Assembly: GCF_000312045.1 (NCBI RefSeq)
Contig: NZ_HE978634.1
Coordinates: forward strand, 2,559,875 to 2,623,874
Reading direction: 5' to 3'
Length of the DNA: 64,000 nucleotides
Source: Noviherbaspirillum massiliense JC206
GTDB lineage: Bacteria > Pseudomonadota > Gammaproteobacteria > Burkholderiales > Burkholderiaceae_D
The first letter of the stretch is position 1, and every line of letters begins with the position of its first letter. The position numbers and the translations under genes were made by a program. Shown here in pieces: positions 45,486 through 54,420 of the stretch. The notes below the pieces were generated by a model, which did no database searches, was not told where the DNA came from, and saw nothing but the letters and a program-made list of their open reading frames with translations.

Positions 45486-48400
45486 TCAAATAGCCTGTGC
45501 TTCCCTGTTGACGAATTCGCTGATGAATTTCAGCAGTTCGTCTTCCCGGTATGGCTTGCCCAGATACTCGTTCACACCCAGCTCCATCGCGTAATTGCGG
45601 TGCTTTTCCGCAGTACGCGATGTGATCATGATGATCGGAATATGCCGCGTGCGCTCGTCACTGCGTACGTTGCGCGTCAAGTCGAAGCCATCCATGCGCG
45701 GCATTTCGATATCGACCAGCATTACGCCTGGCGTTACGGATTGCAGCTGTTCAAGGGCATCCACACCGTCCTTGGCCAGTACCACCTGGTAGCCTTCGCG
45801 CGACAGGAGACGCTGGGTTACGCGACGCACCGTCAGCGAGTCATCCACCACCATGACGATGTTTTGGGTGCGCAAGCCCTGCACTGGTTCCGATACCGGC
45901 GTGGAAGGCGAAGAGACAGACATTTGCGCAACTGCACCCATGTTCGCCGGGGCATCGGATGGAATGAGGCGCGGTGCACGCACATTGTCCTGGGCAGCAC
46001 GCTGAGCGAGTGGCACCGGATTCAGAATCAGCACGATGTCGCCCGAGCCAAGCACCGTAGCGCCGGCAATGCCAATCATCCGCGCCAGTTGCGGCCCGAT
46101 GTTCTTGACTACAACTTCCCGGTTGCCGATGATTTCGTCCACATGGAGCGCGACCCGTTCGCTGCCGCTTCTTAGAATCATCAAGGGCGAATACATCTGC
46201 GACATGGGGGAAGCCGCAGTATCTCCGAGGAGTGCTGCCAGGTAATGCATCGGCACGCGCTGCCCCTGGAATACGACGACGCCGTCGTTGTAGGCAGCAG
46301 TCAGCGCATTCACCTTCAGCTGCTGCACCTGCTCGACCAGCACCGACGGTACCGCATAAGTCTTGCCTCCGGAGGACAGCAATACGACCTGGGTCACGGC
46401 GAGCGTCAGGGGCAGCGTGATCGTGAATTGTGCACCCTTGCCCGGCTCCGAGCGGGCCACCACGCGACCGCCAAGCGCGATTGCTTCCGAACGAACAACG
46501 TCCATGCCGACACCGCGTCCTGCCAGCTCGGTAACCTGCTCCGCCGTCGAGAAGCCCGGATGGAAGATCAGGTCCTTCACATCTTCGTCGCTCATGTCGC
46601 CGTCATTCGTCAGCAGGCCGACACGCTTGGCCTTGTCGCGAATACGCGCGATGTTCAGGCCCTGGCCGTCGTCGGAGAACTGGATGACGACTTCATTGCC
46701 CTCCTGGCGGATTTCGACCAGCAATTCGCCGACTTCGCTCTTGCCTGCTGCACGTCGCGCTTCGCGCGATTCGATGCCGTGCACGATCGCATTGCGCAGC
46801 AGATGCTCGAACGGGCCCGTCATCTTTTCCAGCACGCCGCGGTCGATTTCAACCGAGTTGCCGCGAATGTCCAGGTTCACCCGCTTGTCGACTTCTTTTG
46901 CAGCCTGCCGCGCCACACGGAACAGACGCTCCGACACGCTGGCAAACTGCACCATGCGCACCCGCATCAGGTCCTGCTGCAATTCACGGGTCAGCCGCGC
47001 CTGGGAAGACAGGCCTCCGGCCGCACCGTCGAGGGTACGGCTGAGGTTCTGCTGAACCGAGTTCACGTCGTTGACGCTCTCGGCCATCATCCGGGTCAGT
47101 TCCTGCAGGCGCGTGAACCGGTCGAACTCCAGCGGGTCGAATTCGCGGTCGGATGTCTGCGTCATGCGCGAGGTAATCTGCGTTTCCGCCTGCATCTCGA
47201 TCTCGCGGAGCTGGCCGCGCAACCGGTTGACGTTTTCGGTCAGCTCCAGCAGCGACTGCCGCAGCGATCCGACATCGGTTTCGAGCCGGGATCGGGAAAT
47301 CGAGACTTCACCAGCCTGGTTCACCAGACGGTCGAGGATGTCGGCGCGAACACGAATGAGCGGCGCATTGGCCGCGGTTACAACCGCAGACGCTGCCGGA
47401 CGGGCCGGTACGGTGGCCGCCGGATTCACAGCCAGTGACTGGGAGGCCGCCAGTGACGGCTCCTGCACCGTGATGACCTCTCTGGTCTCCGGCACTTCTT
47501 GCGCGTCCATGGGCAATGCCTGCTCAACGGGGCTCGCCTTTGGCGTTTCCCGGCTGGCATGCGGATTTTGCAGCAGCTCGTACAGATACAATGCGTGGTC
47601 GTAACGCGCGACGAGATCTTCGACTGCCTGAGCGGAGGGCGTGCCAAGGCGCATCAGGCTCTCGATACGCGTTTCCATCTCGTGCAGATGCTGCCCCAGG
47701 GTCATCGCGCCGGCCATGCGGGCGCTGCCTTTCAGGGTGTGAAGCGTACGCAGCAGCGATTGCGGTGCAGCCGCATCGCCGAGTTGCCCCTGCCATGCCC
47801 GCAGCACCTGCCCCATCTCGGGCAGCATGTCCCGGCCCTCCTCGAGAAATACCGGGAGCAAGTCGGCATCCAGTTCATCCTTGAGCACGACTGCCGGCTC
47901 GGTTCGGGTGGCATTTTCGCCCATGACAGCATCGGCGGATGCCGGGCTTACCAATTGAGTTGAGGCTCCCGTTTCGGACTTCGGTTCAACTGCCAGGTGC
48001 GGCTTGGGTTCTGCGGGGCGGCGAGTTTCCATGACCGGCTTCAAGGTAACCGGCAGGTCTTTGCTTGGGGAGGATGCCTGGCGCATCGATCGCGCGTCCA
48101 GGTCTTGCAACACCCGAACCAGATGCAGTGCATGCTCCGGCTGATGCTCCGGCATTTCGCCTGAGGCGAACTCCTGCAGCATCAGTTTCAGGCGTTCCGC
48201 GCTCTGATCCAGCAAGTCGAACTCATGCGCGGTCAGGAGTACGGGTTTGCGCGCCAGGAATTGGAGGACCATTTCAAGCGCATGTGCCAGTTCGTGCAGG
48301 ATCTTGAAACCGACGGTGGCGGAGCTTCCCGCCAGCGAATGTGCTGCATGGACTGCCTGGATGTTGACATGGCGTTCCGGTTCGTGGCGCCATTCAGCAA

Positions 48401-49703
48401 TATCACGCGCAAGCAAGCGCACGAGTTCGTCGGTCTCGGACAGGAAGATATTGTAAAGCGGGAGGCTGATCTCCAGGTCGCCGATCCGCCTTACATTGTC
48501 GTTCGACTTGGTCTCAGGCATGACCATGGTCGGAAACTCGATGACTTCCGCCACGAGGGGAGCTGTTGGCCTTGCAGCTTCGACCGGCGCGACAGGCTGG
48601 GGCTCTGTATCGCTAGCTGGCGTATCGCTGCCGGCCTGATTGAACATGGCCATATCGGCATCGGACAACGAGACTTCCTCCGCCTCCGGGAGAGCGAGGG
48701 GAAGTTCGGCTTCCGCTTCGGAGATCGTCTCCGGCGCAAAAGTCAGGTCAGCCTCTTGCATGAACTGCTGTGCTGCCTCGGGTTTTGGCGCGTCGGTATC
48801 TGTTACTAGTGCGATCTCGGAGAAAGCCGGCGCCGCTGATTCGTCGACAGTATCCTGCGCATCTTCCATCGAAAGACCGAGTTCTGCAGACACTTCGTCG
48901 AACACGAACGGCTCACCTGCCTTCACCCGTTCAGCGGCGCGCACAAGCGCATCCGGAGTACGGTCGGACCTGCCCTGGGTTTTCAAGTCCGCCACCCATG
49001 CGCTCAGCAATTCGGCCGCTTTCTCCAGCAGGGCATAAAGATGGGAATCACCAGGACGGGCATCGGCCAGCCTGACATTCAAGACCTGCTCGATGCCCCA
49101 TGCCGCTTCGCCAAAAGCCACGAGGCCAACCATCCGCCCACTTCCCTTGAGCGTATGGAATGAGCGTCGCAGAGTGGTCAGATGTTCCTGGTTGTGTGGC
49201 TGGCTACGGGATTCGGGCAAAGTCTTGTCGACGCAATCGAGCACTTCTTCCGCTTCAGACAGGAAAATCTCGAGCAGTTCGGCATCAATCGCATCATCGC
49301 TTTCAGGGGTGGCCGAAGGCGAGGCCTGAGCCGGCGCAGGCTGAGCTGGCATGCTTGCGCTGATGATAGGGGCAAGGGTGTCCTGGGAAGGAGTGAAACC
49401 GGCACTCTCGAGGATGTCGATCCCGGCCTGGGCACGGGCCTTGACCTCGGCGTCGTCAACCAGGGCGGCATCCAGCCGAACCTTGTGCAGTGACTCCTTG
49501 AGCTGCTCCTGCAACTGCGGATTATCCGGTTCCGCTGTCAGGGAAATCGCGAGGTCGGCGGACTGTTTCTGAAAATATGCGAGCTCGTCTTCGACCGTTC
49601 CAAGCTGAGGAAGTCCGGCGCCAACTGCGCCGGAACTGGCGCTTGCAGGCGCTGTCGGCGCTTGTCTAGATTGCAGCTGTTCCGCTTCTAGCGGATTTTT
49701 TTT
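45486..49703 (-). CDS. chpA: ChpA/PilL hybrid chemotaxis kinase, C-terminal part (frame-broken from its N-terminal part)
   Basis: About 1,400 residues open in this frame. It holds three histidine-phosphotransfer domains (SFHTLKGSGR, AHSLAGSSA and LHTLKGSARMAG). A CheA dimerisation and ATPase region follows (HLLRNAIVHGIESREARRA, then DDGQGLN and GRGVGMDVVRSEA), then a CheW-like domain and a C-terminal receiver (MVVDDSLTVRR, LVDIEMPRMDG, TSRTAEKH). It is the kinase that signals type IV pilus twitching. The frame has no ATG near its beginning; it stays open up to the A9 run at 49704-49696, where it joins the upstream frame by a -1 shift. Joined, the protein would be about 1,983 residues, normal for ChpA. 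Confidence 0.9.
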   Translation of the reverse strand, partial: KKNPLEAEQLQSRQAPTAPASASSGAVGAGLPQLGTVEDELAYFQKQSADLAISLTAEPDNPQLQEQLKESLHKVRLDAALVDDAEVKARAQAGIDILESAGFTPSQDTLAPIISASMPAQPAPAQASPSATPESDDAIDAELLEIFLSEAEEVLDCVDKTLPESRSQPHNQEHLTTLRRSFHTLKGSGRMVGLVAFGEAAWGIEQVLNVRLADARPGDSHLYALLEKAAELLSAWVADLKTQGRSDRTPDALVRAAERVKAGEPFVFDEVSAELGLSMEDAQDTVDESAAPAFSEIALVTDTDAPKPEAAQQFMQEADLTFAPETISEAEAELPLALPEAEEVSLSDADMAMFNQAGSDTPASDTEPQPVAPVEAARPTAPLVAEVIEFPTMVMPETKSNDNVRRIGDLEISLPLYNIFLSETDELVRLLARDIAEWRHEPERHVNIQAVHAAHSLAGSSATVGFKILHELAHALEMVLQFLARKPVLLTAHEFDLLDQSAERLKLMLQEFASGEMPEHQPEHALHLVRVLQDLDARSMRQASSPSKDLPVTLKPVMETRRPAEPKPHLAVEPKSETGASTQLVSPASADAVMGENATRTEPAVVLKDELDADLLPVFLEEGRDMLPEMGQVLRAWQGQLGDAAAPQSLLRTLHTLKGSARMAGAMTLGQHLHEMETRIESLMRLGTPSAQAVEDLVARYDHALYLYELLQNPHASRETPKASPVEQALPMDAQEVPETREVITVQEPSLAASQSLAVNPAATVPARPAASAVVTAANAPLIRVRADILDRLVNQAGEVSISRSRLETDVGSLRQSLLELTENVNRLRGQLREIEMQAETQITSRMTQTSDREFDPLEFDRFTRLQELTRMMAESVNDVNSVQQNLSRTLDGAAGGLSSQARLTRELQQDLMRVRMVQFASVSERLFRVARQAAKEVDKRVNLDIRGNSVEIDRGVLEKMTGPFEHLLRNAIVHGIESREARRAAGKSEVGELLVEIRQEGNEVVIQFSDDGQGLNIARIRDKAKRVGLLTNDGDMSDEDVKDLIFHPGFSTAEQVTELAGRGVGMDVVRSEAIALGGRVVARSEPGKGAQFTITLPLTLAVTQVVLLSSGGKTYAVPSVLVEQVQQLKVNALTAAYNDGVVVFQGQRVPMHYLAALLGDTAASPMSQMYSPLMILRSGSERVALHVDEIIGNREVVVKNIGPQLARMIGIAGATVLGSGDIVLILNPVPLAQRAAQDNVRAPRLIPSDAPANMGAVAQMSVSSPSTPVSEPVQGLRTQNIVMVVDDSLTVRRVTQRLLSREGYQVVLAKDGVDALEQLQSVTPGVMLVDIEMPRMDGFDLTRNVRSDERTRHIPIIMITSRTAEKHRNYAMELGVNEYLGKPYREDELLKFISEFVNREAQAI

Positions 49704-49704
49704 T
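49681..49704 (-). other. Frame-shift site in chpA: A9 run followed by a hairpin
   Basis: On the coding strand nine A residues (49704-49696) are followed at once by a perfect 5-bp hairpin, TCCGC-TAGAA-GCGGA (49695-49681), whose loop contains the TAG that ends the upstream frame. Reading -1 on the run gives LEKKNPLEAEQL and continues the second frame with no stop. The options are a homopolymer sequencing error, a true indel or phase-variable switch, or programmed ribosomal/transcriptional slippage. Confidence 0.8.
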
Positions 49705-51436
49705 CCAGGAGGTTGGCGCGGAACAGGCCTTCTTTGGCATCGAAGGAGAAGCGATGCTTTGCTCCTTCCGGATGGAATTGCAGCGTTTCAAGGAAAAAAC
49801 TCAAGGCGCCGACGTTCTGCGCTACCTTCTGGAATGCCTCCTGATCCGGAGTGACTTCATTTGCTTCAGCAAAGCCGTGGACAGCGGCACGCGTATGCTG
49901 GACCGTACGCCTGGCATCTTCCTGGTCCAGGATGGCGAGCGCCCCCTCGACTTGGCGCAGTACATCGTCAAGATGCGACAGGGGTTCCCGCTGAGAGGGA
50001 TCCCTGAAATATTCGTCGAGCATTTTTTCAACCTGGCGCAGATTGGACTGCATTTCGCCTGCCAGCGCCGCCATGGTCTGCCGCTCCTGAGCGGCACGCG
50101 ACATATCATCAAGCCATGGCGCCGATTCTGCCGGCTGCTGGCCTGCAACGACGGACAGCAGACGCGCCGTCATCGCGTCAGCACGCTCTGCGAAATCCTC
50201 GGACAAACGGCTGATATCGTTCAGAGAATTTTCGATGAACAAAAGGCCCGTGGCCATCTCGAGGCTGAGTGCATCGCCAGGCTGAGCATGGGCTGCATGC
50301 CGGGCAATGCCGTTGATTTCGCGCAGGAGCTTTGCCAGGGGCTGCGATCCGAGCCTGGATCCAGCCTCGGTCAGGCCATGCATTTCATGCTGAAACGATC
50401 CCGCAGCGCTGGCATCTCCACCTGCAATCCGGTTCCACAAGTTCTTCGCCTGCGACAGCCGTTCCTTGGCGATGGCAAGCGCGTCAACATCGATCTGGCC
50501 ATAGCGCTTCTTTTCGTAGTCAGCCGGTACGGCACCATCGAGTTCATACGCCATGCGGATTTGCCCGGCACGCTCGGAAGGGTTCTTGGCACGTGCAATA
50601 AAGAAAAGCGCGTCACGCAAGAGACGTTCGGCAATGCTGCTGGAGCCCTGGCTCAAGCGCCTGATCTGAAGATTAATGCGGGCAAACAGCTGCTTGACGT
50701 AAACCTCGTTGTGGATCTGCCCTTCTGCCACGACATCGGCAAAACCATGCATCACCCACCAGAAGCCGCGCGCCTGAGGATTTTGCTGTGAATTCTCGAT
50801 TTGCCCGACGATATCCCGCATGACGGCGGCACTGGCCAGCTCGGCCTTGCGGTCAGTGCTTTTCAAGAATGGCAGGAGTGCCCTCTCGAAACGCTGCCGC
50901 AAAGCAGTCAAGTCGCTCGATTGAAGCGGAGCGCCAGCGTCCTGGGAAGAAGTCGGTGTGCGAATCGTAAGATTCGGGAAAAACAGATCCGCAGGATGAA
51001 TGCGTTCAGCGCCTCGCGCTTCCAGCAAGGCACGATAATAGGGGAACAGGCGTACTGGCTGGTGCGGCATACCGGACAACAGCTCTTCCAGATACTCAAC
51101 CAGAGCCTGACATCCCGCGCCAATGGTCTGCACCAGATCCTGGGTGAGCTCGACTTGGCTGGCATCCACCCGGTCCAGCAAATCCTCAACAGTCTCGGTA
51201 ATAATGGCAACGCCGTCGATATCGACGACTTGCAAGGCCCCGTGGGCTTGGTGCAAATAATTCTTGGCGTGACGCAACGCGGTCACTCGCGTCTCGGCGT
51301 CCTGTGCAAGAGCTTCATTCAGAGCATTTTTCGAAAGGTTCAGTGCCTCTCGGACTTCGCCCATCACCCAGGACAGCGGTCCGGCGTCGAAATTATCCCG
51401 AACACCTTGCGGAAAGGTGGAAGAAGGGGTGGTCAT
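49688..51436 (-). CDS. chpA: ChpA/PilL hybrid chemotaxis kinase, N-terminal part
   Basis: A 582-residue open frame with degenerate phosphotransfer-like helical domains (for example LRHAKNYLHQAHGALQVVDI, where the HQAHGAL segment sits at an HPt-like His) and long amphipathic helices, matching the N-terminal part of ChpA/PilL. It ends LLEKKIR-stop in the A9 tract, and the sequence after the stop is open in the -1 frame into the kinase half. It follows pilJ by 101 bases. If no shift occurs, this fragment would be made alone without kinase activity. Confidence 0.85.
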   Translation of the reverse strand: MTTPSSTFPQGVRDNFDAGPLSWVMGEVREALNLSKNALNEALAQDAETRVTALRHAKNYLHQAHGALQVVDIDGVAIITETVEDLLDRVDASQVELTQDLVQTIGAGCQALVEYLEELLSGMPHQPVRLFPYYRALLEARGAERIHPADLFFPNLTIRTPTSSQDAGAPLQSSDLTALRQRFERALLPFLKSTDRKAELASAAVMRDIVGQIENSQQNPQARGFWWVMHGFADVVAEGQIHNEVYVKQLFARINLQIRRLSQGSSSIAERLLRDALFFIARAKNPSERAGQIRMAYELDGAVPADYEKKRYGQIDVDALAIAKERLSQAKNLWNRIAGGDASAAGSFQHEMHGLTEAGSRLGSQPLAKLLREINGIARHAAHAQPGDALSLEMATGLLFIENSLNDISRLSEDFAERADAMTARLLSVVAGQQPAESAPWLDDMSRAAQERQTMAALAGEMQSNLRQVEKMLDEYFRDPSQREPLSHLDDVLRQVEGALAILDQEDARRTVQHTRAAVHGFAEANEVTPDQEAFQKVAQNVGALSFFLETLQFHPEGAKHRFSFDAKEGLFRANLLEKKIR

Positions 51437-51537: not shown

Positions 51538-53799
51538 TCAAGCAACGCGGAAACGGGATACCGAGTTCTTGAGCTCTTCAGCCAATTTCGACAGTTCGCG
51601 AATCGAGTGCGCCGTTTGTTGAGTACCTTCTTGCGTCTGCTCGGTCACCGTCAGAATGCTTTGGATATTTTTCGCTACGCCGTTGGCTGACGTCGCCTGT
51701 TGTTCCGTAGCGGACGAAATGCTTTGGATCAGCTCTGCAAGACGATTAGACACTCGCTGGATCTCGGACAGTGCTGCACCGGCCGCATCAGACAGCTTGG
51801 CACCTTCCACCACACCCTGGGTAGATTTTTCCATCGCCGCGACGGCGTCGTGCGTATCGGTCTGAATCGTACGCACCAGTGCACCGATCTGCTTGGTTGC
51901 CTCGGCGGAGCGTTCCGCCAGTCGCTGCACCTCTTCTGCAACCACCGAGAATCCGCGGCCTGCTTCCCCGGCGGAAGCTGCCTGAATGGCCGCATTCAAT
52001 GCCAGCACGTTGGTCTGCTCGGTAATGTCAGAAATCAGTTCGGTGATTTCGCCAATCTCCTGGGAAGATTCACCGAGGCGCTTGATTCGCTTCGAGGTTT
52101 CCTGGATGTGCTCGCGAATCTCGTTCATGCCCTTGATCGCGTCTTCCACAGCCTTGTAACCCTGCTCCGCTGCACTCACCGACTGACGTGCAACCTCGGC
52201 CGATTCACTTGCAGACCGGGAGACGTCAGTAATCTGGGTGGCCATTTGCAGTACCGCCTGGCCAGTTTCCTGAATTTCGCGCGACTGCTTCTGGGACGCG
52301 ACCAGCAGTTCCGTTGCGATGTTTTGGGCTTGGTTGGATGCGGACGTAACTTGTTCTGCAGTGCTGGTAACGCGACCGACCAGGCCACGCAATTCTTCGA
52401 TGGTGTAGTTCACCGAGTCGGCGATCGCGCCCGTGATGTCTTCCGAAACCGTAGCTTCAACGGTCAAGTCGCCGTCCGCGACTTCCTGCAATTCGTTCAT
52501 CAGGCGCAGAATTGCGGCCTGGTTCTGGTCGTTCGCGCGCTTCGCCTCTTCCTCTTTCTGAATAGCGAGGAGACGCTGCTCGTCAGCCTGCTGGCGCCGC
52601 AAGTCCGCTTCCCGGGTGCGGTTGCGGCTGTCCTGCAGCAGCACCAGCGCAATGCCAACCGCCGTGATCAACGCGACCAGAGCGCAAGCCCACATCAGGT
52701 AAAAGGACCAGTGCAGCGAGTCTTCCTGCGAACGATATGCCTGCTGCAACGAAGTCAGATGCTGTTTCAGCGCTTCATTTTCCGCAAAGATCAGTTGTTC
52801 GGATTGTTTCGCAGCGATGAAGTTTTGCAGGTTGCCAAGAATCGAGCCGACGTGCTTCTGATAGTCCGCAAACACTTTATGCAGCTCAGTCAGCCTTTCA
52901 CGGGTGTCTGCATCGGTGGTCGCCGTCAAGCGCAGCACTTCACTGCCGTTCAGGAAGCCCTCGACGATGTCACGGAAGGTGTTGGTGTCTTTACCCAGCA
53001 AGAACGCCGTTTCGGGGTTCACGCCTTCGGTGGTCAGAAACTCGTTTGCACTGCGACCAAGACGCTGGGTCAGCATCACGAGCTGACCTGCAGCCGACAA
53101 TTCGCGTGCGGATGCGCCGCTCTGCATCTTCAGCGTTGAAATCTGCTCAGTCAGCTCAAGCAGAATGGGAGACAGCGCATTCAGGTTCTGCAGCGTCGTG
53201 CCAAAACCCGTCAATTCCTTTTTCAGCTTGAGGATGGTGTCGGCTGCCTTGTCGGAGTTCGCCCACACCTTCTGGGTATCCTTCAGCATTGCTGCCATTT
53301 GAGGCGTTGGCGGAGCAATGTCACGGCCCTGATATTGACCGCCTTTCGTAAGAACGTTCAAGGCGAAATTGAAGTCCTTGCGGCTTTCTTCCAGCTGCTT
53401 GAATGCCTCGGGGTTACCCTGAATCGCGTTCGGCGCTGCTTTACCGATACGCTGGGAGTGCATCAGCGCATTACCGGCGATCTGTGTTTGGGTGGAAGAC
53501 AGCGTGGAATGGTTAGAGTTAAGCCACACCGCACCTGCCGCAAGCAACAGGGAACCTGCCATCACGGTCAGCAGGAGGCGCACCTGCTTCTGCAATGACA
53601 AACGACCGATCAATGGCAAGCGGATATCGCCCGTTTTTTCCAGCGCACCGCCGATGAAGGTTGCGTTCAGGCTGTTATCCGGCTCACCCGAGGAAGCCAC
53701 GCCGGAAGCTGTGTCGGGCACGACATCAGGCGCAAGACCCGCTTCTCCGGCAAGCCCCCCCTTATTGCCCTTGGCAAAGAACGGTAGTTTGAACGCCAT
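51538..53799 (-). CDS. pilJ: Type IV pilus methyl-accepting chemotaxis protein
   Basis: A 753-residue transducer. TM1 is at about 72-94 ([20 protein letters not shown]). A periplasmic PilJ-type region of about 280 residues follows, then TM2 near 370-390 ([19 protein letters not shown]), a HAMP-like linker and the signalling hairpin with tip [19 protein letters not shown]. It senses surface contact or ligands and controls the ChpA kinase. The long cytosolic N-terminal lead of about 70 residues is common in betaproteobacterial PilJ. Part of pilG-pilH-pilI-pilJ-chpA. Confidence 0.94.
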
Positions 53800-53856: not shown

Positions 53857-54420
53857 TCATAAACCAACGTGCAAAAATTGCGGGTCTTGCACAATCAAAG
53901 AAAGATTAAGTTCCGTCCAGACCTGAGAATCTCGATCAAGATATCGCCGAGGGGACCAGGACGAGGCAGGCTCACTTCCGAGATCCTGAAGCTGCATCTC
54001 GCTGATATTCCGCAGCCCCATTACTCGAGTGACCAACAAAGCACTGTTGAAAGACAAGGCGGGGGAGAAGGCGATGATCCGGCTTTCCTTATCCACCGGA
54101 GTAGGTGCCAGGCCTTGAAACCGGGCGAAATCGATCACACTGATCAAGTTCCCGCGGATATTGGTAAGCCCGAGAAACCAGTCTTTTGTCAAAGGCACCT
54201 TGGTTATGGCGCCAACGGAGATGATTTCGCCCGCCTCCTGAAGATTCAGCAGCCAGCGTGCTTGGCCGATCATTACACCGAGCTGGCTGACATGGTCCTG
54301 CGAACCGGCGCGGACGGCCTGCATGCGCTCGACCAGTTGCGCCTGAAATTCGCGCAAGCGAGTGCGGCGCCCGCTCCCGTCAGGCGCTCTTAAGCCGATA
54401 TCCGATTCAAGCTGGCTCAT
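53857..54420 (-). CDS. pilI: CheW-like adaptor of the Pil-Chp system
   Basis: A 187-residue CheW-domain protein linking PilJ to ChpA. The visible core is WFLGLTNIRGNLISVIDFARF, the usual beta-strand signature. An N-terminal helix (REFQAQLVERMQAV) precedes it. It lies 9 bases from pilH and 57 bases before pilJ in the leftward operon. Confidence 0.92.
   Translation of the reverse strand: MSQLESDIGLRAPDGSGRRTRLREFQAQLVERMQAVRAGSQDHVSQLGVMIGQARWLLNLQEAGEIISVGAITKVPLTKDWFLGLTNIRGNLISVIDFARFQGLAPTPVDKESRIIAFSPALSFNSALLVTRVMGLRNISEMQLQDLGSEPASSWSPRRYLDRDSQVWTELNLSLIVQDPQFLHVGL

Follow-up and report, generated by a model that had tools for sequence, protein, structure and literature searches.

A chpA gene in two reading frames that meet at a run of nine adenines in Noviherbaspirillum massiliense JC206: a possible slippage gene

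In N. massiliense JC206 the gene chpA is divided between two long reading frames that meet at a run of nine adenines (A9). We tentatively propose, at a little short of an even chance, that slippage on this run lets the divided gene yield two proteins, a FimL-like short product and some full-length ChpA, with the default frame swapped in favour of the short one. The frame change is real in the present assembly, which comprises 4.19 Mb in three contigs. In the 64,000-nucleotide stretch analysed here (the window), chpA lies on the minus strand. ORF1 (49688..51436) encodes the ChpA N-terminal domain, starts with an ATG at 51436 and comprises 582 residues. The second open frame, carrying the rest of ChpA, extends over 45486..49787 (1,433 codons, or 1,404 residues if counted from codon 49700). 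The A9 run (49696..49704) has the codon phase NAA AAA AAA ANN; the minus-strand sequence across it reads CTG GAA AAA AAA ATC CGC TAG, and the TAG (49690-49688) ends ORF1 two codons past the run. The third frame meets a stop after 9 codons. An earlier note on this DNA had described frames of 582 and about 1,400 residues meeting at A9, and this is confirmed, with coding potential on both sides of the break (codon-model segments 45489-49629 and 49691-51395). The note also describes ChpA as usually one piece of about 2,000 residues; frames of at least 1,700 codons are present in 132 of the 150 matches listed for family genomes. The window chpA lacks such a single frame of about 2,000 codons (587-codon frame). 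What it has is the mark of a slippage gene: the frame changes at no fewer than nine A residues, whose phase would allow a slip to connect the two frames.

The neighbourhood is that of a chpA cluster, with the chemoreceptor gene pilJ (51538..53799, PilJ and MCPsignal domains) and a pilI-type CheW-domain gene (53857..54420, by domain match) upstream, both on the minus strand, and an AlgH-like gene downstream, all with full domain matches. In the second frame, domain searches located three Hpt stretches (the best-scoring one at 48999..49280), a HATPase_c domain (46404..46808), a CheW-like domain (45999..46391) and a response-regulator receiver domain (45522..45857), all on the minus strand, as well as dimerisation helices. 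The ChpA domain set beside pilJ is complete only when both frames are counted together. No second chpA was seen in the genome: the ORF1 query (P0001) matches once, and the next-best matches of the second-frame query (P0002) are frames of CheA size (710 and 604 codons).

Pfam gave nothing over any cut-off on ORF1. An AlphaFold2 model, run on 48 N-terminal ChpA sequences, is helical (mean pLDDT 84.5, pTM 0.64) and ordered up to residue 576; from residue 577, where the run starts, pLDDT is below 50. In the model, the cut coincides with the end of the predicted compact helical fold and the start of a disordered linker, so that the short product would be a whole domain. The PDB sequence search with ORF1 returned four matches, all at chance level, and none of the 222 matches of the PDB fold search with the model reached E <=0.001; the local fold matches include CheA P1/Hpt bundles. 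P. aeruginosa has in FimL a stand-alone protein homologous to the N-terminal domain of ChpA, as described in the accessible part of PMC3535393. A search for free FimL-like proteins in the wider class matched 52 of 140 genomes, mainly within long frames.

Judged from the sequences compared, no other genome examined shares the break at A9. The ORF1 query matched 249 of 294 family genomes, and the frame counts rest on the 150 matches listed. Among these, the window frame alone closes at the A9 site, and 147 frames are long enough to cross it. The 18 shorter frames comprise that of the window, two whose matches end before the site (G113, G241) and 15 others of 702 to 1,413 codons, enough to cross it. 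Five short-frame loci were examined, of which two reach a contig end (G075, G118) and three stop further along (G006, G095, G230). Both chpA parts lie in one frame in 17 of 17 loci of relatives matched by both (L003-L019, with L020, L021 and L029 left out of the count as chance DNA matches without the gene), and no stop occurs within about 290 codons on either side. One frame likewise holds both parts in all 80 loci kept in the named collection (115 confirmed). Furthermore, all 14 other members of the genus match chpA at DNA level and read through the site.

The three discontinuous relatives differ in where chpA is interrupted. In the congener G006 (L220), the N-terminal part and the kinase part lie about 1.1 Mb apart, P0002 matching at G006:C1:191431-193284 and 1328749-1330560; the kinase part corresponds to P0002 residues 795-1401 (83% identical). 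This chpA is cut by rearrangement or misassembly. In G095 (L221) and G230 (L222) the frame changes later, past the phosphotransfer domains and ahead of the kinase part, and no run of at least seven is present at the break.

An internal comparison is provided by dnaX. The genome holds 16 distinct A or T runs of at least nine, and besides chpA only the dnaX run was found well within an identified gene; a further one lies in L036, a short segment without Pfam match. The dnaX A9 (L033, 2997-3005) has the length and codon phase of the chpA run. The site reads CAA AAA AAA ACT GAG, and an additional A or a -1 slip meets TGA at once. Two of the 15 dnaX genes of the genus, our own included (the others are found among L225-L236 and L238), end at contig ends before the site; in all 13 readable genes, again including our own, both the A9 in phase and the instant stop in the -1 frame are kept, with flanking codons that differ among the 13. 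A fold downstream of the run is inconsistent (z <=-2.5 in 3 of 13, mononucleotide shuffles). Of 97 family genomes, 30 contain the 14-mer CAAAAAAAAACTGA and 2 its reversed control, at places mostly unconfirmed as dnaX. The dnaX A9 of the genus is likely a gamma/tau slippage site, and its conservation together with the immediate stop after a slip suggests that members of the genus make use of A9 as a slippery sequence. It resembles the slippage site (A9) of Thermus dnaX as given in the available portions of PMC1088944 and PMC5009743. In chpA, the same slip direction leads into the second frame.

In the mechanism we propose for chpA, ribosomes in the DNA frame would stop two codons past the run and release a self-contained helical protein of 582 residues, which resembles free FimL in extent. 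Slippage of RNA polymerase on the run would shift a fraction of the messages into the second frame, ribosomal slippage on A_AAA_AAA perhaps contributing too, and the shifted messages or ribosomes would yield full-length ChpA. The arrangement would be a reversed form of dnaX recoding, akin to that of Citrobacter tssM1. Slippage on the run, the reading we consider most likely, is the simplest route to full-length ChpA, and the second frame, intact over its 1,404 residues and coding-like in codon usage, supports it; that chpA slips, that it gives two products and that the shorter of them has a role are what we infer. Among the five options the earlier note had raised, transcriptional slippage comes out as the best supported, as suggested by the conserved dnaX A9 and by the recurrence of A-runs at the same chpA codon. 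For E. coli RNA polymerase, the part of PMC6260861 at hand reports that A-runs slip less than T-runs and that nothing was seen below 8 A's; this T-run preference and the singleton status of the break weigh against slippage at chpA. Bypass of a frame change increases with repeat length (PMC3812077, in excerpt).

As to the recurrence, 86 distinct relatives showed A10 in one case (L054), A9 in two (L065 and L074, belonging to other genera of the family, with sequences equal to those of G046 and G114), A7 in seven and runs below seven in 76, the gene being in frame in every case; the large share of short runs counts against slippage at chpA. Four A or T runs of at least nine occur in the 811,528 bases of the 80 named loci, and the three of these that sit in frames of at least 900 nt are all at the chpA site. 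Where the protein permits A9 or longer, such a run is used in 3 of 3 cases at the site, compared with 1 of 44 at other places (P 0.00025 by Fisher test, a value that is too small since the rows are related). Stops within eight codons in both shifted frames accompany all three of the long runs (L054, L065, L074) and 4 of the 76 runs below seven; the share of same-gene codon positions with stops equally near is 0.076, 0.013 and 0.018 for the A9-A10 rows, and in the seven A7 rows it ranges from 0.015 to 0.837. E-K codons are A-rich in 12 of 19 cases at the site versus 140 of 331 elsewhere, which is not significant (P 0.096), so the recurring run may merely reflect a conserved E-K-K/N peptide. The recurrence is suggestive, this peptide accounting for part of it. 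The three loci with A9 or A10 are candidates for slippage yielding a short product from an in-frame chpA. A wider reading, which we consider unlikely, would be that in several lineages of Oxalobacteraceae and their close kin a poly-A tract in the chpA linker acts as a splitter dividing the output between a FimL-like scaffold and the kinase, run length setting only the ratio as stops are near in both other frames; in N. massiliense the default frame would be reversed and full-length ChpA would be the slippage product.

That chpA has instead been switched off here by an indel arising from replication slippage, be it a phase-variable state that can revert or a null allele of recent origin, with full-length protein too scarce to matter, is unlikely but a possibility to be taken seriously. 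Homopolymers within genes mutate at very high rates, this genome alone among the 150 matches listed has the frame change, and the second frame is without decay, as expected of a recent change. Other chpA genes of the family (G006, G095, G230) are discontinuous too, at other places. However, the conserved dnaX A9 suggests that nine A's in this codon phase are slippery in the genus, in which case expression would be leaky rather than off.

A single sequencing or assembly error within the run is unlikely but a live rival: a singleton change at a homopolymer is what such an error would look like, and singleton frame changes of this class are expected to include many errors (PMC3711429, as far as the accessible text goes). 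We applied the codon model to 390,438 bases of the genome, picked around long runs, with the window included and a small part masked. It listed 51 frame changes between segments on one strand less than 40 nt apart, a limit that makes the scan weak and would miss chpA itself (gap 61 nt). In 49 of them a start codon lay no more than about 45 nt away, which is a weak criterion, and the remaining two were ordinary gene boundaries. The 78 distinct runs examined, a sample of those of at least eight with a few second-contig sites and three G-runs left out, were non-coding in 52 cases, coding with the frame kept in 11 (some of these segments being short or doubtful as genes), at edges in 7 and between segments of different frames in 8. 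The last group consists of chpA, four gene boundaries with a start codon and three runs in a non-coding gap, so that chpA was the only broken gene found around the 78 runs. Counts of A-runs against synonymous shuffles were set aside, the sample having been selected for runs. The genome has one 16S gene, and the contig ends are uninformative on the sequencing technology. Given these results of the codon model and the 78 runs, and a dnaX A9 that has its conserved length in this assembly, a general weakness at runs is unlikely. The homopolymer error suggested in the earlier note is thus rejected as a general fault, though not for the one run in chpA.

The earlier note had pointed out, directly after the run, a 5-bp stem whose loop holds the TAG (49688-49690), and this small inverted repeat can indeed form at 49681..49695 (minus strand), at chance level: for a 46-nt sense stretch 5 of 200 shuffles fold equally well (z -2.03), and the minimum-energy fold of a 101-nt stretch uses other pairs. 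Being downstream of the run, the hairpin would still be untranscribed while the polymerase sits on the run. On the plus strand, 49681-49704 (an inverted repeat followed by T9) resembles a tiny intrinsic terminator inside chpA, again at chance level, and one terminator-like site was found compared with a mean of 2.2 in shuffles. As frameshift stimulator or terminator the hairpin was dropped, being no better than chance, and it is probably incidental. Rfam and tRNA scans of the 64-kb window gave no matches.

Hairpin-stimulated programmed -1 ribosomal frameshifting at A_AAA_AAA, another of the options raised earlier, is most improbable. The heptamer sits in the correct phase and the hairpin follows it, but the stem begins 1 nt past the heptamer, which departs from the usual spacing of -1 frameshift stimulators; there is no Shine-Dalgarno-like stretch upstream of the heptamer, where the sequence is CCTCC, and the arrangement is absent from the relatives examined. 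With a hairpin at chance level and badly placed to help, this reading is unsupported. Equally improbable is a gene fission in which the second frame initiates on its own as a ChpA without N-terminal domain: the cut at a predicted domain boundary and the separate FimL of P. aeruginosa (PMC3535393, seen in part) are in line with it, but the second frame offers no start-type codon before TTG 49514, 174 nt past the stop codon, its first ATG lies at 49352, and the sequence upstream of either agrees with AGGAGG at no more than 3 of 6 positions, so that independent initiation is disfavoured for want of a good start.

If the slippage reading of chpA is true, one signalling gene gives a scaffold-like protein and its parent kinase, slippage determining their ratio, and split genes of this kind are not to be dismissed as pseudogenes. 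In dnaX the genome contains its own calibrator, an A9 that equals the chpA run in length and phase but has the other product as default, and the pair would make slippage readable in two genes within one cell. The literature listings on ChpA, on phase variation of type IV pili and on slippage in chemotaxis kinases showed no report of a split or slipping chpA, and none was listed on dnaX in Herbaspirillum.

The window gene shares with ChpA of the Pil-Chp system the order of N-terminal domain, Hpt domains, kinase, CheW and receiver as well as the adjoining pilJ and pilI-type genes, and differs in lying in two frames. ORF1 is set beside FimL by published homology (available part of PMC3535393), not by sequence. 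As in homopolymer phase variation, a long single-base run lies inside the coding sequence of a surface-motility regulator, although here each species is represented by one genome. In Citrobacter rodentium tssM1, an A11 run allows poly-A transcriptional frameshifting at 20-25% (PMC4256274, in excerpt). There, too, the gene is broken just past the poly-A run, the DNA frame gives the short product and the full-length protein needs extra A's in the message. In contrast to the A9 of chpA, the tssM1 run is A11 and belongs to another pathway, type VI secretion, and its slippage was proved by protein and RNA work whereas that of chpA is deduced. A parallel in the same cell would be dnaX, where one gene with an A9 in the same phase would give short and long products sharing their N-terminal part. 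The split arrangement of chpA, unlike that of dnaX, is unconserved among the relatives examined, and the DNA frame leads to the long product in dnaX but to the short one in chpA; the roles of short and long dnaX products can themselves be reversed, and reversed forms are described in the accessible sections of PMC5009743 and PMC3711429.
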